From assembly GCF_014596745.1 (NCBI RefSeq), contig NZ_JABTCF010000003.1, forward strand, positions 248,001 to 312,000: DNA of 64,000 nucleotides, read 5' to 3'. The notes beneath the pieces were generated by a model that saw only the letters and a program-made list of their open reading frames with translations, was not told the DNA's origin and made no database searches. This document shows, one piece after another, positions 16,541 through 35,707 of this stretch; positions within the stretch are counted from its first letter, which is position 1; each line of letters starts with the position of its first letter. A program made the position numbers and the translations under genes. This stretch comes from Maribacter aquimaris. Lineage in GTDB: Bacteria > Bacteroidota > Bacteroidia > Flavobacteriales > Flavobacteriaceae.

Positions 16541-18427
16541 CTAATTCATATTCGCTGTAAATCCCGAAGTATCCGTTAGTGATTCCATAAAGGCTATAAT
16601 ATCCTTAATTTCTTGCTCCGATAAATTCAATGGTGCATCGGACAACGTTTGGTTTTCAACCTCTAATCCCATACCTGCCCCTCCACCTAGATTATAAAAC
16701 TCCAATACATCCTCCAATGTATCAAACAAACCGTTATGCATATAAGGTGCTGTTAAAGCTATATTCCTTACAGAAACCGTTTTGAATGAATTTTTAAAAT
16801 AAGGTTGTTTTTCTCCATTAAGGCCATTGGCTATGCGACCCAGATCCGTATCCAACTTTGGGTTGATAGAATCAAAACCCTGGGTAATACCTAAGACTTC
16901 AGATTCAGATTCCAGATAAAATGGCGGAATGGTACCATTGAACATGGGTGCAAAATGACAACTACCACATGCACCTTTTCCCATGAACAAATTAAAACCC
17001 CGTTTAGCATTTTCGGGATATTCATTTGTTTCGTTCCGTACATATTGATCAAAGGGACTATTAAACGATTTTAAAGTGTTTACATAAGCCGCAATGGCAT
17101 TGCTTATGGATCGTTGATTTATATCCTGCTTACCAATACCGCCATACGCTTCCTTAAACAATTTTAGGTAATTGGAATTTCTATTCAGTTTATCGATAAT
17201 AGCTTCAAAATCAGTATTGAACTCCAAATCATTATCAATAACATGTGTGACTTGTTTTTCAATATCAAACGCACGCATATCCCAAAAATAACGTGTGGAG
17301 TAGTTCGCGTTAATTAAGGTTGGCGAATTTCGCGCCGTAAAAACACCTACTTGATTCGATTTACTTTTAGGCAAGCCGTCCGTAAAACCTTTGTTAGGAC
17401 TGTGACAACTTAAACAAGACATTTTATTACCATCTGAAAGCTGGGGATCCTGAAACAACAACTTGCCCAATTGAATTGTTTTAGGATTATCCAAAGGCAA
17501 ATAGACTAATTCTGAATAAAAATCAGTATCGAGAAAATCGCCATCAAATAAATTTTTTGATTCATAGTTTTGGGCGTGCTTTTTAAAAGGCTCTAACTTG
17601 ATGTTGCTTAGGTTCTGAAAATCCAATAATCGGGCATACAAGGGATTGACTACTTCCTTTAAAAATCCCAATCGATCAAAATCATTGAAATCAGTATTGG
17701 CATTCAATATTGTTTTTCCTTTTTCAAATAGATCCTTGATGGTTTTGAATTCGGATTTGGCGTTTGGGGAGACAGCCGTTCCAAAATGCAAAAATGTAGT
17801 TTCCATACTTTGCCAACTGACATAACTTTCTTCCATGGCATTAACAGAGCCTGGCGTATCATAACCTGTTAGGCCCAATGTAAAGATCCTGACCAAACCG
17901 GACCTAAGGCACTCAATAATCTGACTAGACTTTAAATGAATCGGTAAATGCGTTTTTGAAATAAAATCAACGCGCTCCTTAAGTCCATTTGCCAATACTT
18001 TTATATGCTGTAAATTTTCTTTGGACGGTTCATCAAAAACAGCTTCATCCAATGCTTGCAAGCCACAAGGTTCAATAACACTTCCTGCTTTAAAATGCTC
18101 ATTTACTTTAGGCAAAGGTGCGCCATTGATATAAGTACCAGCATAGAACGTTTGATAATAATCAAAAATAAACTCAATGCCCTTATAGGCCAATCTGGTT
18201 TTTCTAACTTGCGCTTTCAGGTTCTCAAATTCGTTTAAGGAAGTCGTTTTATCAGCTTGATCTACCAATACATCCACCTCGCCCTGAAACTTATTAAAAT
18301 TGGCCTCATATACTGCCGCTACTTTTTCTAGGATTCTATCTGTTTGATAAGGTGTAGCCGTCTTCTTGCCGGACAACAACAAAAAACAAATAAAAATTGA
18401 CCCTATTAAAATGCCTTTCTTTTTCAT
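16541..18427 (-). CDS. Di-haem cytochrome c peroxidase (CCP/MauG family) with long N-terminal helical domain
   Basis: 628 residues. After a signal peptide (residues 1-20) comes about 270 residues of helical sequence without a recognised motif. Then follows the CCP/MauG region: CLSCH (Cys338-His342) and CGSCH (Cys487-His491) are the two c-type haem sites, and PYMHNG near residue 570 supplies a conserved late motif. Such proteins reduce peroxide or oxidise a partner in the periplasm. Whether it serves glycan oxidation is not known. Its first 12 codons and upstream region reappear, diverged, at 33040-33079 as a remnant, showing that this gene once followed a PAP gene there as it does here (PAP1, 127 bases upstream). 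Confidence 0.92.
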   Translation of the reverse strand: MKKKGILIGSIFICFLLLSGKKTATPYQTDRILEKVAAVYEANFNKFQGEVDVLVDQADKTTSLNEFENLKAQVRKTRLAYKGIEFIFDYYQTFYAGTYINGAPLPKVNEHFKAGSVIEPCGLQALDEAVFDEPSKENLQHIKVLANGLKERVDFISKTHLPIHLKSSQIIECLRSGLVRIFTLGLTGYDTPGSVNAMEESYVSWQSMETTFLHFGTAVSPNAKSEFKTIKDLFEKGKTILNANTDFNDFDRLGFLKEVVNPLYARLLDFQNLSNIKLEPFKKHAQNYESKNLFDGDFLDTDFYSELVYLPLDNPKTIQLGKLLFQDPQLSDGNKMSCLSCHSPNKGFTDGLPKSKSNQVGVFTARNSPTLINANYSTRYFWDMRAFDIEKQVTHVIDNDLEFNTDFEAIIDKLNRNSNYLKLFKEAYGGIGKQDINQRSISNAIAAYVNTLKSFNSPFDQYVRNETNEYPENAKRGFNLFMGKGACGSCHFAPMFNGTIPPFYLESESEVLGITQGFDSINPKLDTDLGRIANGLNGEKQPYFKNSFKTVSVRNIALTAPYMHNGLFDTLEDVLEFYNLGGGAGMGLEVENQTLSDAPLNLSEQEIKDIIAFMESLTDTSGFTANMN

Positions 18428-18554
18428 TTACAACTTAACACCTTTCTGTTTTGGGGCCCTGTTTAAAACCCCTAACACCGCTATTCCCTTTTGGGGAATC
18501 TCTTCCAAAAAAGGAACAAACCCCTAATGACCAATTGTTGGTCAATTGGCAAAA

Positions 18555-20237
18555 TCATTCTATTGTAACGGATTCGATATACGTCCCGTTTTTTGTGGTG
18601 ATCTCAATAGCATACATACCCTTTGGCATCTTGCTCACATCAATGGTCTTTTTCCGGCTCTTTTTCACCAATTTCCCTATGTTGTTATAGATCTTGACTT
18701 TCTTCAGTCGCTCATTACGGTCCATCGTAATGGTAAGCAAATCATGGCCCGCAACATAAAGGACCTTTTTGCTTTCTGCCCCTACTTCCGCTTTTGGCTC
18801 ATTTGTATCGTCCGTAAACGTCACTCCTGTTTTATGGATGGTGAAATAATCATCGATCTCACCGGTTTCCCTTATGAACTTTATGACCATGTTTTGTCCG
18901 CCATTACCATCATCGTCAATTTCCATGACACAGGACCCCAACTTGTTCATGGAGATGTACATGGCCTGGTGATTCAGGTCCCCACCCGATATTTGTCCCG
19001 CAGACCCAGTGGTTATGTAAACAGCGCCTTCTGGCTCTGTACTGGCTTTTTGGTATGCACCATCACCATCCTCTTTACCATCTCCTTTTCCATTTGCCCC
19101 AACGGTATTTCCCCCGTTCGTAATTTCTTCCAGGCTAAATGTGTTGGACAACCCTTGGTGTCCATTTAAAAAATAAGAACGTTCGTAAGAATGGCTATGA
19201 CCGCTTAAAACCAGATCAACCCCGTTGGCCTCCAACATGGGTGTGAAATTTTCCCGCATTTCAACGGGTCGATGATCAACATCGGAGTCATGCGACCCCT
19301 TGGAATAGGCCGGATGATGAAACAAGGTTACGATCCAATCCTGCGCCGTGTTTTGAATATCGGTCAGCGCCCAATTGTACATAGGACCTCCAACGGCGCG
19401 ACTTGTATGATGGGAGTCCAGTATTATAAAGTGAATATTGGCATAATCAAAGGAATAATAGGCCTCTGTTCCCGATGGGGTTCCTCCTGCTTCTCCTGCG
19501 GTAGGAAACGTGAATATATCGTAATACGGACCGGATTGTGTGTCGGAATCTGCAGAATCGCCATCATGGTTCCCCAAACAGGACCATGCTACGGACTTTT
19601 TGAACATATCGTCATAAACATCAAAAAAGGCATTTTGATATTCACTATCCTTTCCCGTGTTATAGGCGTTATCCCCTAAAAACAACATCATATCCGTTTT
19701 ACCCGGGTTCGTTGCCGTAGTGTCCACATAATTGTAATACGCATCCCGTACCCATCTTTGGAAAGTATTTCCCGTACCAGGGTCTCCTATGATCCAAGCA
19801 CGTACAAATTGGTCCGTTCCGGGGGTGGGTGCCGTTATTACATACATATCACCAGTAACACTTTCGGAAAGGACTTCTGTTCGGTTACCTATATTGAAAT
19901 AATATTTTGTGTTAGGCGTTAAACCGGATAAGGTAACTTCGTGTTCCGTGGTTAAATCGGCGCTTGTTACATTTTTGGACATGGCACCCAATAGGGTACC
20001 ATAGTTGACAACGGATTCGGTAGCGATATCAGTCCTCCATTTTACAATTACGCTCGTCGGTGTCCCGGTCTGTAAATAAGGGCCTCTTTCTACAACTACC
20101 GCCGGTAAATTCTTGGGTACGTCAACATTGTTGGCTGCCACAGCAGCACTGATATTGGGAATATCCACAACGGAAGTTTGGGCGAAAGAATACACCGACC
20201 ATAGGGCGGCTAGCAAAAAAATGCTTTTTTTAATCAT
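18555..20237 (-). CDS. Purple acid phosphatase-like metallophosphoesterase with T9SS sorting domain (PAP1)
   Basis: 560 residues: signal peptide (1-19), a fibronectin-like purple-acid-phosphatase N-domain (about 50-140, with GPYLQTGTPTSVIVKWRTD), then a metallophosphoesterase domain with IGDPG, LGDNAY, LGNHD, FHHP and SGHSHSYERS carrying the expected Asp, Asn and His metal ligands. The last 75 residues (KVKIYNNIGKLVKKS ... GMYAIEITTKNG) are a type IX secretion C-terminal domain, so it should be displayed on or released from the outer membrane. It would remove phosphate monoesters, perhaps from the glycan. It is the close paralogue of PAP2 (33207-34862); the final roughly 80 residues appear identical. 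Confidence 0.94.
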   Translation of the reverse strand: MIKKSIFLLAALWSVYSFAQTSVVDIPNISAAVAANNVDVPKNLPAVVVERGPYLQTGTPTSVIVKWRTDIATESVVNYGTLLGAMSKNVTSADLTTEHEVTLSGLTPNTKYYFNIGNRTEVLSESVTGDMYVITAPTPGTDQFVRAWIIGDPGTGNTFQRWVRDAYYNYVDTTATNPGKTDMMLFLGDNAYNTGKDSEYQNAFFDVYDDMFKKSVAWSCLGNHDGDSADSDTQSGPYYDIFTFPTAGEAGGTPSGTEAYYSFDYANIHFIILDSHHTSRAVGGPMYNWALTDIQNTAQDWIVTLFHHPAYSKGSHDSDVDHRPVEMRENFTPMLEANGVDLVLSGHSHSYERSYFLNGHQGLSNTFSLEEITNGGNTVGANGKGDGKEDGDGAYQKASTEPEGAVYITTGSAGQISGGDLNHQAMYISMNKLGSCVMEIDDDGNGGQNMVIKFIRETGEIDDYFTIHKTGVTFTDDTNEPKAEVGAESKKVLYVAGHDLLTITMDRNERLKKVKIYNNIGKLVKKSRKKTIDVSKMPKGMYAIEITTKNGTYIESVTIE

Positions 20238-20252
20238 GATTTTTTTTTATTG

Positions 20253-20302
20253 ATGAAGCTTTCCAAGCTATTGATTTGTTCTTTTAATTATGCAGCCATT
20301 CA
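20253..20302 (-). pseudogene. Remnant of the 3' end of the TPR gene
   Basis: Read on the minus strand, the bases just before PAP1 encode KEQINSLESF, matching KEQIKSLEAQ at the C-terminus of the TPR protein at 34874-35707. The original stop is lost and upstream homology fades after about 20302. It marks the inner edge of repeat copy A. Confidence 0.8.
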
Positions 20303-20473: not shown

Positions 20474-22006
20474 TCAATTAGTATAGGATGGATTTTGTAC
20501 CAAATTTTCATTTTTGAGCATTTCCGCTTCAGGAATCTGATGAAGAATACGATTAGAGGTATATGGAATGGAACCTGGACCTGACCATCCCTGCCATGTC
20601 ATATAACTTCTATCCATAGTTTTCTTATTTCTAAATACATCATGTGTGCGATGTCCCTCATGGGCAAACTCCAAACGAGCTTCATCCAAAACGATATCCA
20701 AAACAGATCCGTATCCCTGAAGATTGTCTAATCGAAACAACTGATCACCCGACAACCCGGCTCGTTCCCTTATTATATTTACCATCTCCAAAGCTTTCTC
20801 TTCCTCACCATTTTTCGCATAAGCCTCAGCCTTTATGAGGTACATTTCCGCCAATCTAAAATAAATGGGGGAATGCAACATCGGCTCGTCATCCTGGTAG
20901 GTTAGTTTTTGGGTCCAATATTCAGGTATACTAGATTTCTCAATCACCTTGTACCCATAATATTCATTATCTGGATCTGGGATTTTATTACCTTCAGAAT
21001 CTAATTCATATTGAACATCAATAAAGTTTGTTCTCAAATCATTAGGGTTCTTGAATAATAAATCCATGAATGAAGAGGATACCATGATTTGACCATAACC
21101 ACCATCTCCATGCATCATTCCTCCCATCATATATCTCCCTACATTATCTGTTGCCAACCTCTGTACCGCAAAAATGGTTTCCGAGTTTCCTACAGGTGCA
21201 TTTCGATTGTATCGAGGGAAAGCTTCAGAACTGAGTAACTGATATCGGCCTGAATTAATTACACTATCCGCATATACTATTGCTTTATCATTCTCTTCCT
21301 TAAAAAGATATAATCTGGAGAGTCCTGCCAAAGCTACTTCCTTGGAAACATAAATATTACTCTTTTCTTCATTTAATAGGCTCGCCGCCTCTAATAAGTC
21401 CTTTTCTACAAACTCGTATGTTTCCTTAACGGTCGCTCTTGAAAGTCCCTCATTTTCCGTAGAAGTGTCACTCAATGGAACCCCTAAATTTGTTGCTGGA
21501 TCGTCGTGGGAATAGGGTCTTCCATAAACGCGTACCAGATCGAAATAAAACATTGACCTAAGGAATATATTCTCTCCCTTTAACTGATCTCTTTTTATTT
21601 CATCTTGCGATGACAACCCTTCGAGATTATCAAGCCCCTCGTTTGCTACATTTATAGAATAGATGGCTCGATAGGAGTACTGCCAAAAATCCAGGGACCT
21701 ATCCGATGCCGAAGTTGGCTGATACGTTAAGGAATATGAGAAATCGTTGCCGCTCCATTGATTAAGAATAACATCGTCACTCATATATTCGGTTACATCA
21801 TAACGCGTTCTATCATAACCATATTTACCCTCTGCAGAACTTAAAAACGCATAGTTCCCAACAATAGTATTTTCAAGCAGTTCCAACGAACTGGTTACTT
21901 GATCAGTCGTGATTTGACTAATTGGTTCAAAATCTATGTTATTTTCAGTACATCCACCCAAAAACAATGGCGATATGCTGATTATAAATATTTTAATGTA
22001 TTTCAT
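20474..22006 (-). CDS. SusD/RagB family outer-membrane glycan-binding lipoprotein
   Basis: 510 residues with lipoprotein signal ending PLFLGGC (Cys19). The N-terminal helical repeats and the conserved segments LRSMFYFDLVRVYG and RLAEMYLIKAEAYAKNG (tetratricopeptide-like) are typical of SusD, as is the RERAG motif and the C-terminal P-S-Y ending. SusD lids the SusC channel and captures oligosaccharides at the cell surface. It starts 17 bases after the SusC stop, the usual susCD arrangement. A 236-base gap downstream leads to repeat copy A. The ligand cannot be predicted; neighbours suggest an alpha-galactoside or amino-sugar oligomer. Confidence 0.96.
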   Translation of the reverse strand: MKYIKIFIISISPLFLGGCTENNIDFEPISQITTDQVTSSLELLENTIVGNYAFLSSAEGKYGYDRTRYDVTEYMSDDVILNQWSGNDFSYSLTYQPTSASDRSLDFWQYSYRAIYSINVANEGLDNLEGLSSQDEIKRDQLKGENIFLRSMFYFDLVRVYGRPYSHDDPATNLGVPLSDTSTENEGLSRATVKETYEFVEKDLLEAASLLNEEKSNIYVSKEVALAGLSRLYLFKEENDKAIVYADSVINSGRYQLLSSEAFPRYNRNAPVGNSETIFAVQRLATDNVGRYMMGGMMHGDGGYGQIMVSSSFMDLLFKNPNDLRTNFIDVQYELDSEGNKIPDPDNEYYGYKVIEKSSIPEYWTQKLTYQDDEPMLHSPIYFRLAEMYLIKAEAYAKNGEEEKALEMVNIIRERAGLSGDQLFRLDNLQGYGSVLDIVLDEARLEFAHEGHRTHDVFRNKKTMDRSYMTWQGWSGPGSIPYTSNRILHQIPEAEMLKNENLVQNPSYTN

Positions 22007-22023: not shown

Positions 22024-25000
22024 TTAGAAGCTAAAATTCAGGTTAAGTAAAAATTTTCTTGTAGGTCTAAATCTACTTGTTTCAGCAAAAGGGTTCTCGT
22101 AACTAACATCCGAATCCCCAAAAGAGTAATTTGTAATTATTGCCAAATTCTCTACAGAAGCATTTATGGTAAACTCCTTAAATACGCCCAAGAAATCCTT
22201 AGGAAAAGTATACCCTAAACTTACTTTCTGAATTTTGAAATAACTTGCATCCTCCAAATAAAAAGATGAAGTCCCGCTAAAATTATATGGATCCCCATAA
22301 ACCAATTGTGGTATATCAGCATCGGTCGTTCCTGGAGTTTCCCAACGCTTTAGATCTTGCCATTTGGTGATTTCAATCCTGTTTGTGCTAAAATCGCTCG
22401 CATTCCAATCAACATAATTATATACCGTTTGTCCAAAAGCAAAATTTGAAAGAACATTTAAATGAAAATTCTTATACTTGAAATAATTGGAAAAACCACC
22501 AGTCATTTTAGGGTAAGAAGAAGACGTTGGCATATAACTGGCCTCTGACTGATAATTTGTGGTTGTAACCAATGCCGGATTATCCGTTTCGTTTCCATTG
22601 ATCTTATTGCCATCCGCATCTTCCCATCTAGTATAAATAGGGGCACCCGTTTGTGCATCTACACCTTGATATTCAGGAAGGTAAAAACTCCTTAGTGAAT
22701 ATCCTTCTCGAATAATCATTCTATCATTAATGATATCCTCTCCTCCATCAAGTTCCAATACCTCATTCTTATTGATATTGAAATTGAAATTAGTTGACCA
22801 AGAGAACTCACCTTCGATATTCTTTGTCGTCAATGATAAATCAATTCCCTGGTTTCGGATAGAACCGATATTACGGACCTGACTGGTAAAACCTGTAGTA
22901 GCCTCTAAAGGAACGGATTGTAACAAGTCATCATTTACACGGTGATATAGGTTGACCTCTAATGAAGCCCGTCCAAATACATTAATATCGAGGCCTAAAT
23001 TAAATTTATGTGCAGTCTCCCACGTTAAATCGGGATTGGGCAAACGAGAAGGCCATGCACCTGCATTGGCATTATAACTGGATTTTGTTGTAAATGAATA
23101 CGTTCCCATTGACAAATAGGGTTCAATATTTGCATTTCCCGTAGTACCATAACTTAATCTAAGTTTTAAAAGATCAAGCCAAGAGCTTGAATCTTCCAAG
23201 AAATTTTCCTTACTGACCATCCAGCTACCACCAATGGAATAAAAAGTACCCCAACGTTTTTCTGCTCCAAATACAGAGGAGGCATCACGACGTAAAGAAC
23301 CCACTAAATAGTACTTATTCTTGTAGTCATAATCCAATTGTCCGAAATACGACAAAAAACCGGACTCATACATATCACCACTCACATCACGGGCACTACC
23401 CACAGAACTAAGTGCGGTCATATCCCCGACGATACCAGTTCCTACAGCATTTACAAAACGGGTTTGATCATAATTATATTCCTGACCCAATATACCGGAC
23501 AGGCTGTGATCACCGAAGCTTTTATTGAGATGTAAGGTATTGGAAGATATAACTCCAAGACCATAACTATAATCCCATTCCATATAACCATCGTAATTAT
23601 AACCAACCCAGGTCATGTTTGAATACGACTTAGAATGATCGGACCCGTTCAATGCTACCCTGTTGGAGGTATTGAACCTTGCCCAGTCTGTAATTTTCCA
23701 ATCCAATTCCATCATTACAGTACTTCCCCAGAATTTTTTACTATTTTCTGATTCTTCCCTTTCCATCATATAATTGACCCCAGTACCACGGTACCACACA
23801 GGTACCTGCTCAAGATCCATAGCTGGAGTTGGTGTTACACCGTCAGGCATAAAAGCAGCATCAAGCGGAACATTCTGATATGCCTGAGTATAGGGACTTG
23901 GCCAATTAAATTCAGATTTATCCCCGTATTGGGCAGTCATTCTAATATTGGTTTTCAGTTTATCGGAAATTTTATGACTTAGGTTTCCCCTAAAATTATA
24001 TTCATTATTATAGTAATCAAGGGCTGTTCCTTTCTCCCTGTTTAAAGAAGCACTAACATAAAATGTAGTCCTATCCGATCCCCCGGACATAGCAACCTGG
24101 GTTTGATTTAAAAATCCAGATCTTAAAAGTAAATCGCTCCAATTAGTGGTGTAATCCAAAGCACTTGTAGGTACAACACCATCCCGGTATTGCTCAAAAG
24201 TTGTATTGACAAAATCAGGATTACCTTCCGCTACCCTTAAATTATAAAGATTTTCCATCGCTGTAGACCACTGTCCATATAAACCTTCGGCATCATACAC
24301 TTTCATCCTGTCATTCCAATTGGAAGTTGGACCAAATGTACTATTTACAGAAACCTTAAATTCACCAGCTTTTCCTTCTTTTGTGGTAACTACAATTACC
24401 CCATTGGCTGCACGGGAACCATAAAGTCCGGTGGCTGCTGCATCCCTTAGGACAGTAATCGTTTTAATATCTTTCGGATCATATTGTCCTCCAATTATCC
24501 CATCAACAACAATTAAGGGAGAGCTACCTGCCTCCATTGATCCCGCACCTTGTATGACCATGGATGCACTTTGACCAGGCTCACCACTACTACCAGATAC
24601 TTGCATTCCAGGAATCCTTCCCTGAAATATATCCCCTAAACTCGTTGAACTTACTGATTGCCTGATTTCCTCTTCTGAAACAATGGACACCGAAGATGAT
24701 AGCTCGGATTTCTTTTTTGTCGCATATCCAACAACTACCATCTCATCCAAGCTTTCAGCGTTGACCTTCAAACTGATAGATATATTAGATTGTCCATTCA
24801 GAGGAACTTCTTGGGTAGCATATCCTATATAGGATACCACTAGTATACTATTCCCATCGGCAACATTCATTAAAAAATTACCATCAAAATCGGCAATGAC
24901 CCCATTTGAAGTACCTTTTTCAACAATATTTGCTCCTGGAAGGGGCATACCACTATCATCGATAATTGTCCCGGTAATTGAATATTGGATGATTGAATGA

Positions 25001-25404
25001 TCCTCTAAGTCTACCCGATCATCACTTGATGACCGAACATCTTTAGTGGTTCGCTTTAGTACTATTTGTTTATTCAAAACCTTATAGGAGACATTTTGAC
25101 CTTGAAAAAGTATGTTCAATATTTTTTGGATCGGTGTATCCAATACCTTAATACTGACTTTTCTTTGGACATCTATTTCATTGGTTTTATAAAAAAAATT
25201 GAATTCACTTTCGGATTCGATTTTCTCTAAAACGCTTTCGATGGACTTGTCTGAAATATCCAATGAAATTTTTTTGTTTTGCCCATAAGAGTTGGCCTGT
25301 AGATTGAACAAGGCCAAAGCAAACAACAGGAATGAAAGCTTCATTGATCGGTTTTTGTTTAGTACGCTTCCCAGAAATATGGGAAACCAATGCTTTTTTT
25401 GCAT
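22024..25404 (-). CDS. SusC/RagA TonB-dependent receptor with STN signalling domain
   Basis: 1126 residues. After the signal region (an alternative start at 25344 would begin MKLSFLLFALALF) come an STN domain (about 45-115, signal transduction to an anti-sigma factor), a carboxypeptidase-regulatory-like beta domain (about 135-220, SITGTIIDDSGMPLPGANI), the plug (about 230-345, ending with the GSRAANGVIVVTTKEG signature), and the 22-strand barrel ending in Phe. It imports oligosaccharides using TonB energy. The STN domain together with the adjacent fecR and sigma genes predicts that substrate binding here switches on transcription by the ECF sigma factor. It is paralogous to 60476-63808. Confidence 0.96.
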   Translation of the reverse strand: MQKKHWFPIFLGSVLNKNRSMKLSFLLFALALFNLQANSYGQNKKISLDISDKSIESVLEKIESESEFNFFYKTNEIDVQRKVSIKVLDTPIQKILNILFQGQNVSYKVLNKQIVLKRTTKDVRSSSDDRVDLEDHSIIQYSITGTIIDDSGMPLPGANIVEKGTSNGVIADFDGNFLMNVADGNSILVVSYIGYATQEVPLNGQSNISISLKVNAESLDEMVVVGYATKKKSELSSSVSIVSEEEIRQSVSSTSLGDIFQGRIPGMQVSGSSGEPGQSASMVIQGAGSMEAGSSPLIVVDGIIGGQYDPKDIKTITVLRDAAATGLYGSRAANGVIVVTTKEGKAGEFKVSVNSTFGPTSNWNDRMKVYDAEGLYGQWSTAMENLYNLRVAEGNPDFVNTTFEQYRDGVVPTSALDYTTNWSDLLLRSGFLNQTQVAMSGGSDRTTFYVSASLNREKGTALDYYNNEYNFRGNLSHKISDKLKTNIRMTAQYGDKSEFNWPSPYTQAYQNVPLDAAFMPDGVTPTPAMDLEQVPVWYRGTGVNYMMEREESENSKKFWGSTVMMELDWKITDWARFNTSNRVALNGSDHSKSYSNMTWVGYNYDGYMEWDYSYGLGVISSNTLHLNKSFGDHSLSGILGQEYNYDQTRFVNAVGTGIVGDMTALSSVGSARDVSGDMYESGFLSYFGQLDYDYKNKYYLVGSLRRDASSVFGAEKRWGTFYSIGGSWMVSKENFLEDSSSWLDLLKLRLSYGTTGNANIEPYLSMGTYSFTTKSSYNANAGAWPSRLPNPDLTWETAHKFNLGLDINVFGRASLEVNLYHRVNDDLLQSVPLEATTGFTSQVRNIGSIRNQGIDLSLTTKNIEGEFSWSTNFNFNINKNEVLELDGGEDIINDRMIIREGYSLRSFYLPEYQGVDAQTGAPIYTRWEDADGNKINGNETDNPALVTTTNYQSEASYMPTSSSYPKMTGGFSNYFKYKNFHLNVLSNFAFGQTVYNYVDWNASDFSTNRIEITKWQDLKRWETPGTTDADIPQLVYGDPYNFSGTSSFYLEDASYFKIQKVSLGYTFPKDFLGVFKEFTINASVENLAIITNYSFGDSDVSYENPFAETSRFRPTRKFLLNLNFSF

Positions 25405-25495: not shown

Positions 25496-26635
25496 CTATT
25501 TTTCTTTCATACGGTTTATTTTAATTTTCTTATTATTAATTTCATATTCGAATCCAGCACTCTCTTGAATCGTGTTCAGAATGTCAATTATGGTTTCCCC
25601 TTCCCTAAATTCGCCATTAAACTTGACAAGGTTTAAATCTTTGTAATTGTTTTCTATCTCCACTGCAAAATGTCTTTCTATTTTCTGAATTATATTTATA
25701 AATGATTCATTATTAAAAGTCAAACGTCCCTCCCTCCAACTTAAATAATCACTAACATCCACTTCATTTACCGCTATACTGTTATGGGACAAAGTTGCCT
25801 TCTCCCCAGGACGAATAATAGTAGGGCTTCCTAACAGGTCTTTATCTTTCTTGTTATAAACAGCCACGCTTCCTTCTGTTAGTAGTGCAAATGTTTCTGT
25901 TCCAGTATAGGAACTGACATTAAAGTGGGTACCTAGCACTTCAACGTCTAAGTTATCGGTAGATACAAGAAAATGCGAGAGTGAGTCCTTAGCAACCTCA
26001 AAGTAGGCTTCTCCGTTCAAAAAAACCTGCCTATCCTTTCCTGAAATAAAATTGACAGGATATTTTAGTGAGGATCCCGAATTCATATGAACCAATGATC
26101 CGTCCGACAATCTTATTTCAAATTTTTTACCATTAGGCACAATGATTTCATTGTAGACAAGTTTTTGAAGCCCTTCATTGCCCTCATAACTTATTTGATT
26201 TCCATTCTGTTTACCAATAACTTTTCCTCTGCTATCAAACAAATCCTGTTCTGAATTTGAATCTATCTTTTTGATAGTATTATCTGAAGTTTTTAGTATT
26301 ATTTCTGACTCCACTACTTGATTTGATTCAGGAAGAAATTCCTTTGAAGTATTTTGATACCATAAAAAACTTCCAATCAGCCCTACGATAATTGCAGCAT
26401 ATTTAAGATAATGCTTAATGGAAAATTTACTTTTCTGACTTTTAGTGTTAATATTGGATTTAATATTCATCCATATTTTACCTTTAATTTCCTCATCATA
26501 TCTTAATTCCGACCATAGTTTGTCTTTATCCTGAAATGATTGTAAATACTTATTAAGCATTTCAATTTCCTTTGCTGAACACTCATCTTTGACATATTTA
26601 TCAAAAAGTTCTTTTGCTTGTCTTTTGTTCATCAA
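25496..26635 (-). CDS. FecR family anti-sigma factor
   Basis: 379 residues. The N-terminal cytoplasmic part (about 1-76) should bind the ECF sigma factor. One membrane helix lies at about 77-94 (YAAIIVGLIGSFLWYQ). The periplasmic FecR domain follows (about 155-265, with IVPNGKKFEIRLSDGSLVHMN and GEAYFEVAKD), then a DUF4974 domain (about 305-375, LTFNNESFINIIQKIERHF) that resembles an STN partner. It would hold the sigma factor until the STN domain of the SusC encoded 91 bases downstream signals. It lies 236 bases after the sigma gene, with an inverted repeat between them. Confidence 0.95.
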   Translation of the reverse strand: MMNKRQAKELFDKYVKDECSAKEIEMLNKYLQSFQDKDKLWSELRYDEEIKGKIWMNIKSNINTKSQKSKFSIKHYLKYAAIIVGLIGSFLWYQNTSKEFLPESNQVVESEIILKTSDNTIKKIDSNSEQDLFDSRGKVIGKQNGNQISYEGNEGLQKLVYNEIIVPNGKKFEIRLSDGSLVHMNSGSSLKYPVNFISGKDRQVFLNGEAYFEVAKDSLSHFLVSTDNLDVEVLGTHFNVSSYTGTETFALLTEGSVAVYNKKDKDLLGSPTIIRPGEKATLSHNSIAVNEVDVSDYLSWREGRLTFNNESFINIIQKIERHFAVEIENNYKDLNLVKFNGEFREGETIIDILNTIQESAGFEYEINNKKIKINRMKEK

Positions 26636-26678
26636 TTCAATTTAGTATTACAACAGAAAAATGTTCCATTATCTATAA

Positions 26679-26871: not shown

Positions 26872-27447
26872 TTATAGGGTACTGGTTAAAAAGATAAAAT
26901 AAAGGACCCCTTCTTCCATAACCATGTTTTTTCTCAAAAAAGCAAGGGCCTTGGAAATTTGATTTTTAACGGCCTGAACGGAAATTTCCAATTCCAAGGC
27001 AATCTCCTTATTGGACTTATCTTCAAATCTGCTCAAAACAAAAATCTGTTGACATTTCGTAGGTAGTTTGTCCACATGGGTCTTTATTATCGTTTGTAAT
27101 TCGTCAAACTCCAGTTTCTTAGTAATGCTCATCGAAATATCTACAATAATAAGTCTTGTCATATCCTCATCTGAAATTTTCCGATTTCTAATGTGGTTAA
27201 AAACTTGATATTTCACCGCCTGAAAAAGATATGGTTTTAGCTGTTTTACTTTTGCCTTTTTCCGTTTTGTCCAAAAATCTATGAATACATTTTGTACAAT
27301 GTCCTCACATACCTCCTTCTTTTTGAAAATATTCATAGCGAAGAGAAACATACTTTTAGAATAGCGTTCATATATCTCTTCAAATGCAGAAACATCATCT
27401 AGCATTATAAGTTCTAATAAATCACTGTCGTTAAGCTTTGCCGCCAT
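26872..27447 (-). CDS. ECF sigma-70 factor (Bacteroidota FecI-like group)
   Basis: 191 residues, normal for extracytoplasmic-function sigma factors. Region 2 is recognisable around residues 20-90 (DDVSAFEEIYERYSKSMF, VCEDIVQNVFIDFW). Region 4 is a helix-turn-helix near residues 135-175 (LPTKCQQIFVLSRF, NKEIALELEISVQAVKNQ). It should direct RNA polymerase to the susCD promoter when released by FecR. The short C-terminal tail (GVLYFIFLTSTL) is hydrophobic, which is common in this group. A degraded relative of part of this gene is found at 53864-53925. Confidence 0.95.
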   Translation of the reverse strand: MAAKLNDSDLLELIMLDDVSAFEEIYERYSKSMFLFAMNIFKKKEVCEDIVQNVFIDFWTKRKKAKVKQLKPYLFQAVKYQVFNHIRNRKISDEDMTRLIIVDISMSITKKLEFDELQTIIKTHVDKLPTKCQQIFVLSRFEDKSNKEIALELEISVQAVKNQISKALAFLRKNMVMEEGVLYFIFLTSTL

Positions 27448-28496: not shown

Positions 28497-30089
28497 CTAT
28501 TTCAATCTTTTGAAATAAGGCAGACGCTCTAACGAAACTTTTATGTCCACGGATTTGCCCCCTCTATAAACAACTCCCAATTCATCGATCCATTTACCCT
28601 TCGGGAGTATTACCTTTCGATTTTGTGCCCCTTTTTCAAGTACGGGAGCTACAAGTATATCGTCTCCAAGCATAAACTGATTTTTCACCAATTCATATCC
28701 TTGGTGCGGAAAAACATATTCCATAGAGCGGACGATTGGTTCCCCTGAAATTGCTGATTGTTCGGCAAATTCCATTATTAACGGTACATACTTACTTCTT
28801 ATTTCAACGGCTTTTTTAACAGCTTCAAAATGCTCTTTATCCAAAATCCGCCATGGGGCAACCGAAAATTGCATCATAGGCATTAAAGCATGACATTGTG
28901 CCGATCTAACAATCAATTCCTGGTCTATTGTTTCAGCGCTCAAAAAGGAAACAAATTCACCTCCTCCGATCATATCTGGACAGGAAAAAGAATAACCCAT
29001 AATTCCCTGCACTAAAATACCTGGAACCAATTTTTGCAAATCCTCCCAATTATGACGTTTATCGGACAAACGATTAACAATGGGCTGCCCTGCCATTTTC
29101 CACATTGCCCTGTATTCATTCAATGGATTACCAAGTCCGATTTTTGCATATAATTCACTGTGTTCCTGAGGACTTACCTTTACTCCTCCCGAATAACAAT
29201 CCTCATAGGTCCCAAAATCACCTGCATCAAGCTTAAATCCATCAATACCATAAGTATCCTTTAGATTATTGAGTTGATTTTCAAACCATTGGTTACCTTC
29301 TTTTTTGGAAAGATCTATAAGGCTACTATATCCATTCCACCATTCTATAAGTGCTGGATTTCCAGCTTTATCTTCCAAAAGTATATCCTCTTCCCTGAGT
29401 TTACGGAATACATCACAATCAGGGCTAACAAAGGGGCAGACCCATAACATAACCTTAAACCCCATGGCATGAAGGGAATCAACCATCATTTTCGGATTAG
29501 GAAAACGACCTTCATGAAAGTTCCATTTTCCATAATCCTCTTGCCAGTTATCATCTATCATCAAAACTCCCGGAGGAAAACCGTTCGCTATGATCTGACG
29601 TGCATATTCCAAAATATCCTCCTGGTTTTGGTCGTACATCAATTCAATCCAGGTATTGTACTGAGGTTCTGAAAACAACAACCGGTCCGGTAATTTCCCA
29701 GATGGTGAAAAATGATTTTCTGAGGCAAATTTAAACCCTTCTTTCAACGTTTTTCCTGCTTTGATATACGTCAATGAAGAATCTGGGGATATTACATTCA
29801 ATATTCCATTCTCCATTGATATTTCGAACGGTTTTTCAGACCAAATAACATGCCCTTGATTTGAGAGAAGCATAGGCTGCACCTGATTTCCATAGTTCTG
29901 ATTCAAATTTGCCTTATATCCATTCTGTATTGGCATCATTTCCCCATGTTTAATAACACCGGTCCACCATGACATATTTTTTTCAACCGGTACCGAAATT
30001 TGATGCTGCTTATTTTGTTGGGCAACCCCATTCCAGGTAATTAACAATAGAAATACCTGTAAGCATTTTATATAAAATAATTTCTTCAT
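28497..30089 (-). CDS. GH31 family glycoside hydrolase, alpha-galactosidase-like branch (second copy)
   Basis: 530 residues with a signal peptide (about 1-24). The barrel has DGFKLDAGD with predicted nucleophile Asp288 and CPDMIGGG with predicted acid/base Asp372. The order of segments (NQVQPMLLSNQG, YNTWIELMYDQNQEDIL, PPGVLMIDDNWQ, VMLWVCPF) matches the GH31 at 11199-12815 throughout, so the two are paralogues, but they are clearly diverged and may differ in linkage. It lies in the cassette between the direct repeats. A roughly 100-base sequence upstream (30126-30225) is duplicated upstream of the Gfo/Idh/MocA gene at 31787, suggesting shared regulation. Confidence 0.93.
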   Translation of the reverse strand: MKKLFYIKCLQVFLLLITWNGVAQQNKQHQISVPVEKNMSWWTGVIKHGEMMPIQNGYKANLNQNYGNQVQPMLLSNQGHVIWSEKPFEISMENGILNVISPDSSLTYIKAGKTLKEGFKFASENHFSPSGKLPDRLLFSEPQYNTWIELMYDQNQEDILEYARQIIANGFPPGVLMIDDNWQEDYGKWNFHEGRFPNPKMMVDSLHAMGFKVMLWVCPFVSPDCDVFRKLREEDILLEDKAGNPALIEWWNGYSSLIDLSKKEGNQWFENQLNNLKDTYGIDGFKLDAGDFGTYEDCYSGGVKVSPQEHSELYAKIGLGNPLNEYRAMWKMAGQPIVNRLSDKRHNWEDLQKLVPGILVQGIMGYSFSCPDMIGGGEFVSFLSAETIDQELIVRSAQCHALMPMMQFSVAPWRILDKEHFEAVKKAVEIRSKYVPLIMEFAEQSAISGEPIVRSMEYVFPHQGYELVKNQFMLGDDILVAPVLEKGAQNRKVILPKGKWIDELGVVYRGGKSVDIKVSLERLPYFKRLK

Positions 30090-30371: not shown

Positions 30372-31787
30372 TTACAAACTTTTTGCCCTGGGCTGCAGAT
30401 CGGTCAAAGAACCGATCCTCACAGCCCTGCCCGATTCAATACTATTCCGGGCTGCAATCCCTATCAGTGCAGACATTGCCCCTTCTCGGATCCCTGCCGA
30501 TTGTTTTAAAGGGTCTGTTCGCTCAGGATGTATAAATATCTTGTCCTGTAGCCTCGCATCACCTCCTCCGTGTCCGGAAATATCATAGTGGACATCTATT
30601 ATTTCCTGTTCCTTGTCCCAGAGCTTATGGATAATAATTGGTTCTACCTGCTGTTTCCCTTTTCCTTCCTGACTCATCTCAATATGATGTAATTCCTCCT
30701 GCGAAAGTTTATCAGAACTCAGGTAAGGGATATTCACAAATGCTTCCAGCCGCCCTTTTTTGCCATTAAAAGCAATACGCCAACCTTCCCATGGAGAGTA
30801 TGTTGTTAGCATATAGTTGGCATAGACATTATTGGCATATTTGATGCTCAAGTTCATTTTGTCGTAAATGTTAATCTCTGGTCGAAACAAACAATTATCC
30901 CTTAGGTAACCATCATATTTTTCATTATCGACATACAATTTCTGGTGAAACGCATCACGTCCCCCATCTGTAATGTCCCAGTAAAACTTACAACTGTCTT
31001 TTTCATTACAGGTGCGGCAGTTTACCCCTTTTTTCTTTGGGTTGCGACCATAGAACTCCAGGTCACCACGGGCATACACCTCTTCCGGTTCCGAATCGAG
31101 CCACCAATTCAACAGGTCAAAATGGTGCGTTGATTTATGAACCAGTAAAGTACCACTGTGTTCCCGTTGACCATGCCAACGGCGAAAATAAGAAGCCCCA
31201 TGAGAGGTATTCAGCATCCAGGAAAAATCCACAGAAACGATATCCCCAATTATTTGCTGACTTAATAGCTCTTTAACTTTTAAAGCATAAGGGCTCCAAC
31301 GCAGGTTAAAACCTACGATTACCTTCCTTTTGTATCTTTGTTCCGCATCCAGGATAGCTTGCATTTTATCTTCGTCGGTAGTAATCGGCTTTTCGGTGAT
31401 TACATCAATTCCGTTTTTCAATGCCTTAATAATATATTCATGGTGCGTGGCATCGGTAGTGGCCACAATGATCAAATCGGGCTGATGGTGTTCGAGCATC
31501 TCTTCAAAAGAGGTGTATAGCCCACATTTCTTTCCTACACCAATATACCCCGCTGCATATTTTACCCTCCCAGGATTTATGTCAACCAGTGCCGTGAATT
31601 CTAAAATATCACTATAGTTGGTTACTAAACGTTTTCCCCAAAAATCGTTGCCACGATCTCCCGTGCCAACCAATACTACCTGCATTTTTTTTCCATTGGA
31701 GGTCATCGCTGCCCTTAACGGACTGCTTAGAATGGTTCCCGCAGCGATAACGCCAATGGCAGACAAAAAATCTCTTCTATTTTGCAT
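30372..31787 (-). CDS. Tat-exported Gfo/Idh/MocA family oxidoreductase with Cys cluster
   Basis: 471 residues. The leader MQNRRDFLSAIG is a twin-arginine signal. The Rossmann motif is VVLVGTGDRGNDFWG and the signature TEKPITTDED keeps the catalytic lysine; the HKSTHHFDLLNWW segment is typical of dehydrogenase members. An unusual insert, CRTCNEKDSC near residues 257-266, holds four residues that could bind a metal or form disulfides. It should act in the periplasm on a sugar or glycoside delivered by the neighbouring SusCD, possibly supplying a 3-keto intermediate. It follows the DUF5009 gene by 137 bases and precedes GH31 by 282 bases. Confidence 0.9.
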   Translation of the reverse strand: MQNRRDFLSAIGVIAAGTILSSPLRAAMTSNGKKMQVVLVGTGDRGNDFWGKRLVTNYSDILEFTALVDINPGRVKYAAGYIGVGKKCGLYTSFEEMLEHHQPDLIIVATTDATHHEYIIKALKNGIDVITEKPITTDEDKMQAILDAEQRYKRKVIVGFNLRWSPYALKVKELLSQQIIGDIVSVDFSWMLNTSHGASYFRRWHGQREHSGTLLVHKSTHHFDLLNWWLDSEPEEVYARGDLEFYGRNPKKKGVNCRTCNEKDSCKFYWDITDGGRDAFHQKLYVDNEKYDGYLRDNCLFRPEINIYDKMNLSIKYANNVYANYMLTTYSPWEGWRIAFNGKKGRLEAFVNIPYLSSDKLSQEELHHIEMSQEGKGKQQVEPIIIHKLWDKEQEIIDVHYDISGHGGGDARLQDKIFIHPERTDPLKQSAGIREGAMSALIGIAARNSIESGRAVRIGSLTDLQPRAKSL

Positions 31788-31924: not shown

Positions 31925-33025
31925 TTATATTTTGATAAAAAGTTTTCGTTTATACATCCAGTAGCAAATATACCATAGGCCAAAAGCCACAAATAGTGAG
32001 GTAATGATAATTGTACTGATTTCCCCTGTCCATCCAAACAATGCAGTTGAAAATGGTTTTATAATCCGATTCAGGAGATCGGCACCACCCACACTTGCGA
32101 AAATATAGATAAACAGAGGGTTCATGCCTACCACTGCAAAAAACAGTACCCCTCTTTGCATTTTCATCATATCAATTAACCAGAAAGAGGCTGCAAGAGC
32201 AAGCAAGGCCCATCCTCCACTGGCAAATACAAAGGATGTTGTTGCAATTCGTTTTATGATGGGTGTTATTGGATCGAGTCCATAACCAATAATCAATCCG
32301 ATTACCCCCGCCATGACCAAATAGCCCAGTTTTTGTTTGTTTGATTTTTTGCTCATTAACAACTGCCCGGCCAACACGCCCCAAATGGTATGTGCTGAAG
32401 TTGGAATTGCATTAATAGAAACCCAATGTCCCGTTGACAATTGCCCTGAGATCAACATATCTACCCATGATCCAAAATTATGGTCGGCAACAAATGGTTG
32501 ATTAAATCCCTCAACCGAAAAGGTCCGGTATAAGATCTCTGTCAGGACCAACAGTCCAATGGAAACAGCAATCTGGGTTACCACAGGTTTCCGCATTAAA
32601 AGAAAGGCCACGATAATCGTAACGGAAAGTTGTGCCAATACATTTTGAAAACGAAAAACCACTCCATCAGGAATACAATTCAATGCCCAGCCTAATATTA
32701 GAAGGATTAAGGAGCGTTTTAGTATATGTTTCAATATGGATTTATAACTATCTCCTTTACTTATTCTTTTAGAGAATGATAACGGCATGGCAACCCCAAC
32801 GATAAACATAAAAAATGGTTGTATTAAATCCCAGAACCTAAGCCCATGCCAAGGGTGGTGATGAAACTGATGGCCGATATTATAAATAAGTGTGCCTTCA
32901 AGTTGCGGTGAGGTAAGGTGATTGAACAGAAAAGTAAACTCTACGATCAATAAAAACATGGTAAATCCCCTAAAAAAATCAAGGGATAATAATCTGGATT
33001 GTTTTGTGTCTTTTTGTGCGGTCAT
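31925..33025 (-). CDS. DUF5009 / NagX-like multi-helix membrane protein (HGSNAT-related)
   Basis: 366 residues from the start chosen at 33025 (MTAQKDTKQSRLLSLDFFRG). The SRLLSLDFFRGFTMFLL opening, IGHQFHHHPWHGLRFWDLIQPFFMFIVG with its conserved histidines, and about 10 membrane helices identify the DUF5009 / heparan-alpha-glucosaminide N-acetyltransferase-like family, often called NagX in amino-sugar loci. It probably acylates or transports an amino sugar at the inner membrane. A frame extending to 33079 adds 18 residues (MKRTGILIESIFLF...), but these derive from the truncated peroxidase gene in the direct repeat, so the longer start should be rejected. Confidence 0.88.
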   Translation of the reverse strand: MTAQKDTKQSRLLSLDFFRGFTMFLLIVEFTFLFNHLTSPQLEGTLIYNIGHQFHHHPWHGLRFWDLIQPFFMFIVGVAMPLSFSKRISKGDSYKSILKHILKRSLILLILGWALNCIPDGVVFRFQNVLAQLSVTIIVAFLLMRKPVVTQIAVSIGLLVLTEILYRTFSVEGFNQPFVADHNFGSWVDMLISGQLSTGHWVSINAIPTSAHTIWGVLAGQLLMSKKSNKQKLGYLVMAGVIGLIIGYGLDPITPIIKRIATTSFVFASGGWALLALAASFWLIDMMKMQRGVLFFAVVGMNPLFIYIFASVGGADLLNRIIKPFSTALFGWTGEISTIIITSLFVAFGLWYICYWMYKRKLFIKI

Positions 33026-33039
33026 ATAATAATTATTAA

Positions 33040-33079
33040 ATAAAAAAATGGATTCAATTAAAATGCCTGTTCTTTTCAT
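33040..33079 (-). pseudogene. Remnant of the peroxidase gene 5' end
   Basis: From an ATG at 33079 the minus strand encodes MKRTGILIESIF, aligning with MKKKGILIGSIF at the start of the di-haem peroxidase (18427). The sequence before the ATG also matches. After about 12 codons the homology ends, leaving the fragment fused in frame to the DUF5009 coding region. Confidence 0.82.
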
Positions 33080-33206
33080 TTACAACTGAGTACCTTGCTG
33101 TTTTTGGGGCTTGTTCAAAACCCCTAGCACCACTATTCCCTTTTATGGAATCTCTTCCAAAAAAGGAATAAACCACTATCGACCAATTGTTGGTCAATTG
33201 CCAAAA

Positions 33207-34862
33207 TCATTCTATCGTAACGGATTCGATATACGTTCCGTTTTTTGTGGTGATCTCTATAGCATACATACCCTTTGGCATCTTGCTCACATCAATGGTC
33301 TTTTTCCGGCTCTTTTTCACCAATTTCCCTATGTTGTTATAGATCTTCACCTTCTTTAGGCGCTCATTACGGTCCATCGTAATGGTAAGCAGATCATGGC
33401 CCGCAACATAAAGGACCTTTTTGCTTTCTGCCCCTACTTCTGCTTTTGGCTCATTTGCATCGTCCGTAATCGTTACCCCTGTCTTATTGATGGTAAAATA
33501 ATCCTCAATCTCACCGGTTTCCCTTATGAACTTTATGACCATGTTTTGTCCGCCATTACCATCATCCTCAATTTCCATGACACAGGACCCCAATTTGTTC
33601 AAGGAAATGTACATGGCTTGGTGGTTCAGGTCCCCTCCCGATATGTGACCCGCGGATCCGGTGGTTATATAAACGGCACCTTCTGGCTGTGCACTATCTT
33701 TTTGGTATACACCATCACCATCCTCTTTGCCATCTCCTTTTCCTGTTGCCCCAACGGTATTTCCCCCGTTCGTGATCTCTTCCAGGCTAAATGTGTTGGC
33801 CAATCCTTGGTGCCCATTTATAAAATAAGAGCGTTCATAAGAGTGACTATGGCCGTTTAAAACAAGATCAACCCCGTTGGCCTCCAACATGGGCATGAAA
33901 TTTTCACGCATTTCTATCAATCGATCTTCGATGTCCGAATCATGTGACCCTTTGGAGTAGGCAGGGTGGTGGAACAAGACTACGATCCAATCCTGCGTTG
34001 TGTTCTGAATATCGCTTAACGCCCAATTGTACATGGGATCCCCTATGGCCCGACTTGTATGATGGGAGTCTAGGCTGATTACATGGATATTGGCATAATC
34101 AAAAGAAAAATAGGCCTCTGTCCCTGATGGCGTCCCTCCTGCTTCCGCTTCCTTTGGGAAAGTGAATATGTCATAATACGGACCGGACTGTGTGGCCGAA
34201 TCGGCAGAGTAGGCATCATGGTTTCCCAGACAGGACCATGCTACGGACTTTTTGAACATCTCGTAATAAATATCAAAAAAGGCACTTTGGTATTCTTCAT
34301 CGGTACCCGTACTATAGGCATTATCCCCTAAAAACAACATCATGTCCGTTTTACCGGTGTTCGTTGCCGTAGTGTCCACATAATTGTAATACGCATCCCG
34401 TACCTGCCTTTGAAAGGCATTTGCCGTACCGGGGTCGCCTATAATCCAAGCACGGACAAATTGGTCCGTTCCGGGGGTGGGTGCCGTTATTACGTACATA
34501 TCGCCGGAAACACTCTCCGACAGGACCTCCGTTGCGTTCCCTATGTTGAAATAGTATTTCGTGTTCGGGGTCAAACCGGATAAAGCAACTTCGTGTTCGG
34601 TCGTCAAGACCTTGCTTGTCTCGTTCTTGGTCAAAGAACCCAACTCCTTGCCATAATTGACCACGGATTCCGTAGCCGTATCCGTTCTCCATTTTACGAT
34701 AACGCTCGTTGGTGTCCCGGTCTGTAAATAAGGGCCCCGTTCAACAACTACGGAGGGGGTGTTCTTTATAGAGGTGGCAATGGGGCTATCGGCCGTTGCG
34801 GTTTGTGAAAATGAATTCACCGTGAACAACATAAGTAAAATAAGTGTACTTTTTTTAATCAT
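33207..34862 (-). CDS. Purple acid phosphatase-like metallophosphoesterase with T9SS sorting domain (PAP2)
   Basis: 551 residues with the same architecture as PAP1: signal peptide (1-19), purple-acid-phosphatase N-domain, metallophosphoesterase core (IGDPG, LGDNAY, LGNHD, FHHP, GHSHSYERS) and a type IX secretion C-terminal domain. Differences concentrate in the first 45 residues, where PAP1 has a 9-residue longer linker, and in scattered surface positions such as NGHSHS for SGHSHS. It begins 11 bases after the TPR gene stop, so the two are one transcription unit; in copy A that TPR gene is lost. It likely removes phosphate outside the cell. Confidence 0.94.
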   Translation of the reverse strand: MIKKSTLILLMLFTVNSFSQTATADSPIATSIKNTPSVVVERGPYLQTGTPTSVIVKWRTDTATESVVNYGKELGSLTKNETSKVLTTEHEVALSGLTPNTKYYFNIGNATEVLSESVSGDMYVITAPTPGTDQFVRAWIIGDPGTANAFQRQVRDAYYNYVDTTATNTGKTDMMLFLGDNAYSTGTDEEYQSAFFDIYYEMFKKSVAWSCLGNHDAYSADSATQSGPYYDIFTFPKEAEAGGTPSGTEAYFSFDYANIHVISLDSHHTSRAIGDPMYNWALSDIQNTTQDWIVVLFHHPAYSKGSHDSDIEDRLIEMRENFMPMLEANGVDLVLNGHSHSYERSYFINGHQGLANTFSLEEITNGGNTVGATGKGDGKEDGDGVYQKDSAQPEGAVYITTGSAGHISGGDLNHQAMYISLNKLGSCVMEIEDDGNGGQNMVIKFIRETGEIEDYFTINKTGVTITDDANEPKAEVGAESKKVLYVAGHDLLTITMDRNERLKKVKIYNNIGKLVKKSRKKTIDVSKMPKGMYAIEITTKNGTYIESVTIE

Positions 34863-34873
34863 GATCTCTATTT

Positions 34874-35707
34874 TTATAATTGAGCTTCCAAGCTCTTGAT
34901 TTGTTCTTTTAATTTTAATATCGCATTCATATTCTTAAACTTCATATCCAACCGATCAATGGTACCTGTGGCCAGTTTCAATGAGATGATCGCTTCTTTT
35001 GGTCTGTTAATTTCCGCTAGATACATCGCCTTCTTATAATACCAGAACTCCCGCCTATCGTATTCAAGTAAGAAATAATTGTATTGGTCCAATGCTTTTT
35101 CAATCTGACCTGAATTTTTCAGAAGGTCCAATTTTCTGAGCTGGAGCGATAAGGTGTTCGGTCCAAGTAGCTTTAGGCCGGACTCGATCGCGTCCAGGGC
35201 AGCTACCTGGTTTTTGTCGTTCTCGGCAAGTATGATGTCACAGTATTCCAATATGTCCTCAGGACGAAGGTCCCTCATATTATCGATGACATAACGGTAA
35301 GCGTACAAGGACTTTTTATATGCCCCTAGTTCAAATAATATTTGAGCCTCAAGCTTTTTCGCCTTTACGTCACTACTTCCATCCACTTCCAAATAAGAGG
35401 TTATACTTTTTAGGGCAGCATTATAATCCCCCGCCAGATAATTGACCTCGGCAATCCTATACTGTAGCGCCTTATCCGTATTTCCTAAAGACCTTGATTT
35501 AAGGTAGTCCTCCTGGGCCTTTGTGTATTCAATATGCTGTTGATACAACAAACCCCGTTCATAGTACAGCCGAAAGTCCTTTGGACTTTCGGATATCTCC
35601 CTCGTTTTCTCATTTATGCGCTTTGTTAAATCCCCATGCCCGAACACTTGCGCTGATAACAAGGAAAACATAACTATAAATAGTGCTTTCTTAATTCCGT
35701 TCTGCAT
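34874..35707 (-). CDS. Periplasmic tetratricopeptide-repeat protein
   Basis: 277 residues from the start at 35707, which gives a clean signal peptide (MQNGIKKALFIVMFSLLSAQVFG); an ATG 30 bases upstream adds MGMMFYKKGN and is less likely. The mature protein is a series of TPR-like helical pairs (FRLYYERGLLYQQHIEYTKAQEDY, LQYRIAEVNYLAGDYNAAL, AQILFELGAYKKSLYAYR, REFWYYKKAMYLAEINR). TPR proteins act as interaction scaffolds, here perhaps for the phosphatase encoded immediately downstream. Its last codons are also present as a remnant beside PAP1 (20253-20302). No enzymatic motif is seen. Confidence 0.88.
   Translation of the reverse strand: MQNGIKKALFIVMFSLLSAQVFGHGDLTKRINEKTREISESPKDFRLYYERGLLYQQHIEYTKAQEDYLKSRSLGNTDKALQYRIAEVNYLAGDYNAALKSITSYLEVDGSSDVKAKKLEAQILFELGAYKKSLYAYRYVIDNMRDLRPEDILEYCDIILAENDKNQVAALDAIESGLKLLGPNTLSLQLRKLDLLKNSGQIEKALDQYNYFLLEYDRREFWYYKKAMYLAEINRPKEAIISLKLATGTIDRLDMKFKNMNAILKLKEQIKSLEAQL

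Follow-up and report, generated by a model that had tools for sequence, protein, structure and literature searches.

Complementary phosphatase half-modules around a glycan-utilization cassette suggest a composite polysaccharide utilization locus in Maribacter

When DNA integrates by a single crossover of the Campbell type, the insert comes to lie between direct repeats of the recombining gene. In Bacteroides, gain of polysaccharide utilization loci (PULs) through homologous recombination at core 'genomic nodes', with no mobile DNA involved, has been described, and the same paper also names transfer of PULs on integrative and conjugative elements (ICEs) (Pudlo et al., 2022; PMC8845570). Here we describe a PUL of Maribacter aquimaris, contained in a window of 64,000 nucleotides (RefSeq assembly GCF_014596745.1, contig NZ_JABTCF010000003.1, positions 248,001 to 312,000; all coordinates below are those of the window, and the features given in the form x..y lie on its minus strand). 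A cassette of PUL genes is placed between two purple acid phosphatase genes, PAP1 and PAP2, each accompanied by one half of a module made up of a tetratricopeptide repeat (TPR) gene, PAP and a peroxidase gene. On balance, and with some reserve, we interpret the locus as a composite PUL joined by recombination within the PAP genes, and favor this over a tandem duplication in place.

The nearest counterpart is the PUL exchange of Bacteroides, and we regard the present case as one of the same kind. As at the nodes described in PMC8845570, PUL genes unaccompanied by mobile-element genes would have been joined or replaced through homologous recombination at flanking genes; that model leads one to expect a donor-like signal in the flank genes. 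Two features distinguish the Maribacter locus from that account: in Bacteroides it is the segment bounded by two core nodes that is exchanged for another, whereas the exchange gene here would be an accessory gene associated with the PUL; and the duplicated PAP has been left as direct repeats around the cassette, the copies of which keep converting each other. The likeness to Campbell-type integration lies in these repeats, which flank the insert in the same orientation, each as a complementary half-module; unlike that case, neither a circular donor nor a plasmid was found, and a plasmid collection gave no match at near identity. The locus shares with ICE-borne transfer its outcome, the gain of a glycan locus. 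It differs from an ICE or composite transposon: a Pfam scan of 25 window proteins, among them the nine main open reading frames (ORFs) from PAP2 through PAP1, brought up no integrase or transposase family, the window contains no tRNA, and no inverted repeats of at least 30 nt occur between 15000 and 38000, shorter att-like sites lying outside the scope of that search. These results agree with an initial annotation of the window, which had held that no integrase is needed. The present case was not found described in the open-access literature on PUL recombination or under the species name; nor did we find an open-access paper combining PULs, direct repeats, excision and circles, or anything relevant on PUL gene conversion.

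PAP1 (33207..34862) and PAP2 (18555..20237) both encode purple acid phosphatases with a C-terminal type IX secretion system sorting domain (Pfam Metallophos, Pur_ac_phosph_N and Por_Secre_tail for PAP1; Pfam also for PAP2), and form direct repeats in the same orientation at a spacing of 14,652 bp. BLASTN of the two flanks aligns 18392-20099 with 33044-34751 without gaps over 1,708 nt (1,478/1,708 identical, 86.5%, E = 0), and a second piece at the PAP starts pairs 20224-20289 with 34849-34914 (57/67 columns identical). The direct repeats of ~1.9 kb reported initially are thus real, with an alignable length of ~1.8 kb in all and a diverged segment at the PAP N-terminus. A search of the whole genome with the left PAP copy returned the copy itself, the right copy in two pieces and one 42-base place (E 6.5e-4). 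A complete TPR gene (34874..35737), the left half of the module, stands beside PAP1, which has no peroxidase gene; a complete di-haem cytochrome c peroxidase gene (16541..18427, Pfam CCP_MauG), the right half, stands beside PAP2, which has no TPR gene. As first proposed, the inner edge of either repeat preserves a scrap of the gene found intact at the opposite side, namely ~36-48 nt of the peroxidase start and ~52 nt of the TPR 3' end. The assignment of the TPR gene stands on its orthologues, which immediately precede PAP in the 18 contiguous modules described below; as a domain call it is weak, the two TPR families matched in Pfam both falling under their curated cut-offs.

The gene orders from which such a locus could be assembled are present in relatives. 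PAP was found at E <= 1e-80 in 17 of 397 family genomes, and a scan of named genomes gave 76 PAP loci, 50 of which (L017-L066) were classified by the best PAP of each; some are on short contigs, so that a neighbor may lie beyond the end. A contiguous module, with TPR at most 200 nt before PAP and peroxidase after it, occurs in 18 of the 50. In 7 others the TPR gene lies 0.2-3.5 kb before PAP and a peroxidase follows, in 13 it lies at that distance and there is no peroxidase, and 10 have neither; the two M. polysiphoniae copies are the sole cases of TPR within 200 nt without peroxidase (1/50) and of peroxidase without TPR (1/50). The three-gene module is therefore common, and its split into complementary halves is seen, among these 50 loci, only in this Maribacter lineage. 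The uninterrupted locus predicted by the initial annotation exists in Maribacter HyVt-319 (L053), where five PUL genes colinear with window 46198-53627 are followed by nitrilase, TPR, PAP, peroxidase and GDSL genes; there is one module and no cassette at that place, and the order is colinear with the right arm of the window. The complementary parent is found in Arenibacter sp. F26102, in which the same PUL backbone (SusC 84%, SusD 90%, GH28 69%) continues into TPR'-PAP-DUF5009-sulfatase-GH31, TPR' being a remnant of the TPR gene; this genome has a separate, complete TPR-PAP-peroxidase elsewhere. The neighbors of the two window copies correspond crosswise to these orders: PAP1 has TPR as in HyVt-319 and DUF5009 as in Arenibacter, and PAP2 has TPR' as in Arenibacter and peroxidase-GDSL as in HyVt-319.

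The remnant TPR' (20238..20289), ~52 nt from the 3' end of the TPR gene, lies directly upstream of PAP2 and was delimited by alignment with Arenibacter, to which the window sequence aligns over 57 columns with a score of 59 (highest of 300 shuffles, 32) and that of M. polysiphoniae with a score of 55 (shuffle maximum 34). The distance from PAP at which its homology begins agrees, to within a few bases, between Arenibacter and PAP2 of the window and of M. polysiphoniae, and the gene further upstream is SusD in the window and GH28 in Arenibacter. The Arenibacter-like tail of the remnant (LESSINNQ versus LEAQL) was considered as a sign of foreign origin and is not decisive, because HyVt-319 has a tail LESTINN; a tail beginning LES may simply be ancestral.

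Within the genus, PAP was found at E <= 1e-60 in two of 12 genomes, that of the window and M. polysiphoniae DSM 23514, with two copies in each. The gene order of M. polysiphoniae matches the window from the TIM gene to the sulfatase and the shared proteins are 89-99% identical (PAP1 92% at the amino acid level), with two additional genes, a sulfatase and one without a Pfam hit, between PAP1 and DUF5009 that are absent from the window. The composite is thus older than the split of the two species, or has passed between them, and a fresh insertion in M. aquimaris is ruled out, as M. polysiphoniae bears the same composite.

The copies have continued to exchange sequence since the species diverged. 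Among sites of the codon alignment that divide the four Maribacter copies two and two, columns 0-1379 contain 104 that group orthologues, 11 that group the copies of one genome and 5 of the third kind, and columns 1380-1683 contain 1, 22 and 0 (Fisher p 2.2e-16, with the cut at column 1380 picked after viewing the site map). The homogenized tract of PAP2 (18555..18860), matched with ~33207-33510 of PAP1, includes the longest exact run between the copies (89 nt, at 18607); these last ~300 nt encode the sorting tail, and the remainder of the genes diverges. The pattern indicates that this end of PAP was homogenized separately in each genome after the divergence, and from the concerted 3' sites it follows that the repeats do recombine with each other, yet both species keep the cassette.

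The other inner edge appears to have a different history. The low end of the left repeat coincides with the opening 36 nt of the peroxidase ORF, and the right copy carries, at 33032..33206, the PAP-peroxidase intergenic sequence and the first ~36-48 nt of the peroxidase gene fused to the leader of DUF5009, as delimited by alignments; the joint, at ~33032-33044, falls in a short A/T-rich stretch present in both sequences. The peroxidase-derived sequence shares the reading frame of the DUF5009 ORF, which begins MKRTGILIESIF, compared with MKKKGILIGSIF for the peroxidase; the DUF5009 start at 33079 is peroxidase-derived and adds 18 residues in frame, the original start probably having been at 33025. 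In M. polysiphoniae the DUF5009 leader matches that of Arenibacter at 52 of 75 ungapped positions (highest of 2,000 shuffles, 39), and the window leader resembles both only near the start codon, farther out being peroxidase sequence. Comparison of the 3' flanks of the copies in the window (W1 and W2) and of M. polysiphoniae PAP2 (Mp2) gives the same picture. The W1 flank aligns with W2 at a local score of 216 (highest shuffle 28), and the intergenic identities are 86.9% for W1-W2, 81.4% for W1-Mp2 and 83.7% for W2-Mp2 (shuffled level 61.5, standard deviation 4.6), by which the copied stretch beside PAP1 is not young; the M. polysiphoniae PAP1 flank (180 nt) scores against W1, W2 and Mp2 at levels reached by 226, 71 and 105 of 500 shuffles. 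In M. aquimaris the peroxidase scrap probably arose later than the composite and is secondary to it, and the reciprocal edges are therefore, contrary to what the initial annotation supposed, not the scar of one crossover. On the most economical reading, the two extra genes were lost from M. aquimaris and the scrap was acquired, copied from PAP2-peroxidase and joined in the shared A/T-rich stretch; the reverse polarity, with the M. polysiphoniae flank derived, is less economical.

We propose that an older version of the PUL had TPR-PAP-peroxidase-GDSL as one unit, and that another had a half-copy lacking the TPR gene, TPR'-PAP, next to DUF5009. Homologous recombination inside PAP would have joined the two, leaving the cassette (DUF5009 to SusD) between TPR-PAP1 and TPR'-PAP2-peroxidase. 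The simplest topology would be a single-crossover insertion of circular or tandem cassette-bearing DNA; later, in M. aquimaris only, a PAP2-peroxidase stretch would have replaced the 3' flank of PAP1 and joined the DUF5009 leader. Of the circle recombining with a resident locus that was envisaged initially, the two parental orders have been found; since no complete donor carrying the cassette and no circle was found, we can only infer the circle, together with the single crossover and the direction of transfer.

Several observations weigh against a composite of this origin. The full donor order is in no genome found, SusC-SusD of Arenibacter F26102 lying on a third contig without PAP, and the cassette-free order comes from HyVt-319, a metagenome-assembled genome (MAG). 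The cassette oxidoreductase has a match in 39 of the 397 family genomes, in 38 places outside the window genome (best of these, from outside the genus, 69%), and in the two of these contexts inspected, the best 20-kb context and the next best, no other cassette gene stands beside it; a search of five genomes for the GH31 gave three matches at 51-59%. The M. polysiphoniae PAP1 flank resembles that of the Arenibacter PUL PAP weakly (score reached by 26/500 shuffles), the flanks of TPR-PAP-peroxidase are mostly not conserved between genera, and second PAP copies occur nearby, in the same fetched locus, in other taxa (L056, L057, L059, L062 and L066, with opposite orientation in L059 and L062). 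The PAP phylogeny, finally, does not show the two sources that the initial annotation would imply. Trees were built from 24 sequences, namely the pairs of the window and M. polysiphoniae and 20 other named loci (excluded in advance were L030, L034, L036, L037, L039, L041-L044 and, apart from L053, every locus from L047 upward). The four Maribacter copies form one clade in columns 0-1050 and 0-540 (support 100/100 and 100/99), with the Arenibacter PUL PAP as sister in columns 0-1050 (97/95) and the PAP1 pair branching from inside the PAP2 copies; approximately unbiased (AU) tests reject a grouping of the two PAP2 copies with the PUL-borne PAP of Arenibacter (p-AU 0.013 for 0-1050, 0.011 for 0-540 and 7e-5 for 1050-1683). 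That grouping appears weakly in columns 540-1050 (59/90), where monophyly of the four copies is not rejected (p 0.52). PAP2 of the window is 79% identical in amino acids to the Arenibacter PUL PAP, and in columns 600-1050 the identity to it is 85-91% for PAP2 and 77-83% for PAP1, the AU tests establishing no separate source. The tree pattern can be attributed to conversion between the copies or to plain duplication; gene conversion blurs the trees and hides a crossover within PAP, and the neighboring genes are complementary.

Plain duplication is the strongest competitor, and we hold it to be possible if clearly less probable than a composite. A TPR-PAP-peroxidase unit would have been duplicated in place, peroxidase being lost from copy 1 and TPR from copy 2, with the cassette inserted or grown between them. 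The clustering of the four Maribacter copies in columns 0-1050 and 0-540 speaks for this, as does the Maribacter type of the intergenic copy beside PAP1, given that W1 and W2 are closer than W2 and Mp2; the second PAP copies of the five other loci, and the PUL-borne PAP with a decayed TPR in L020, are in its favor too. The TPR' break point of PAP2, however, is already present in Arenibacter beside another upstream neighbor, so that the half-copy seems to predate a duplication in place, and the adjacency of PAP and DUF5009 is likewise common to Arenibacter.

We consider it improbable that linear foreign DNA entered with one end recombining homologously in PAP and the other joined illegitimately on microhomology, between the peroxidase start and the DUF5009 leader, and that no circle took part. 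The A/T-rich stretch at that joint, and the resident type of the intergenic and peroxidase-derived sequence by PAP1, would suit such an entry, but the M. polysiphoniae composite lacks the joint and keeps an Arenibacter-like DUF5009 leader, so that the joint looks younger than the composite. An assembly artefact or chance similarity has next to no standing, given the E value of the repeat and the identical order in an independently sequenced species with shared genes at 89-99% protein identity: M. polysiphoniae carries the same two half-modules, and the repeat pair is therefore neither artefact nor fresh insertion.

Between the PAP copies the gene order is DUF5009 (31925..33079), GFO/IDH/MocA oxidoreductase (30372..31787), GH31 glycoside hydrolase (28497..30089), extracytoplasmic function (ECF)-type sigma factor (26872..27447; Sigma70_r4_2, Sigma70_r2), FecR-type anti-sigma factor (25496..26635), SusC-like TonB-dependent transporter (22024..25404; Plug, STN, CarbopepD_reg_2) and SusD-like glycan-binding lipoprotein (20474..22006; SusD_RagB, SusD-like_3), all assigned with Pfam. 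The cassette is unremarkable in GC content except at 26001-28000 (31.7% GC). Further PUL genes lie beyond both repeats: on one side a GDSL hydrolase (14608..16452, Pfam), which comes after the peroxidase both in the window and at the HyVt-319 locus that lacks the cassette, GH28, GH31 and a sulfatase; on the other DoxX, an oxidoreductase, an alpha-galactosidase-like glycoside hydrolase, peptidase M14, a nitrilase-like enzyme, two DUF4832-like proteins (one slightly under the DUF4832 cut-off) and more. The cassette is therefore part of a larger PUL and no island within unrelated DNA. Seven window genes between TPR and nitrilase (35834-45051) are missing at that place in HyVt-319, so that the PUL has been altered at more than one place.

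Comparable arrangements occur in other genera. In Formosa, a PAP without TPR' comes immediately after a SusC-SusD pair of 74-81% identity, and a PAP behind this pair is therefore not unique to Maribacter. Homology between the SusD-PAP2 spacer and its SusD-PAP counterparts in Formosa was set aside as weak and inconsistent across shuffle tests (for the window, 13, 1 and 283 of 300 shuffles reached the score against L2A11, F. algae and Form2B; for M. polysiphoniae, 6 and 53 of 300 against L2A11 and Form2B). In Formosa algae (L031 and L034) a distance of 14.5 kb separates SusC-SusD-PAP from a TPR-long PAP-peroxidase of like orientation, and protein windows show no clear homogenized tail. In Arenibacter catalasegens (L020) the last gene of the same PUL backbone is a PAP preceded by a decayed TPR and followed by apparently peroxidase-type intergenic sequence, no peroxidase, and then ceramidase-like and DUF7133/cytochrome genes. 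L035, from a MAG labelled Cyclobacteriaceae, has the TPR-PAP-peroxidase module as well; its PAP clusters with Arenibacter in the trees, by transfer or misbinning. A fixed chromosomal home of the module is ruled out, as its flanks differ among the compared loci except L010 and L012.

That PAP might serve PULs of this family quite generally as a point of exchange is a more tentative idea, and an unlikely one as matters stand: Flavobacteriaceae would swap or add modules across genera within one phosphatase gene and with no integrase, the TPR-PAP-peroxidase units and half-copies lending shared homology to modules on the DUF5009 side, the SusC-SusD side and the peroxidase-GDSL side. PUL gain without mobile elements has so far mostly been inferred from pangenomes. 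Here one locus retains both half-modules, relatives retain both parental orders and the copies have kept exchanging, which makes a stepwise history testable, in an example from marine Flavobacteriaceae where exchange would have taken place at an accessory gene of the PUL and not at a core gene.

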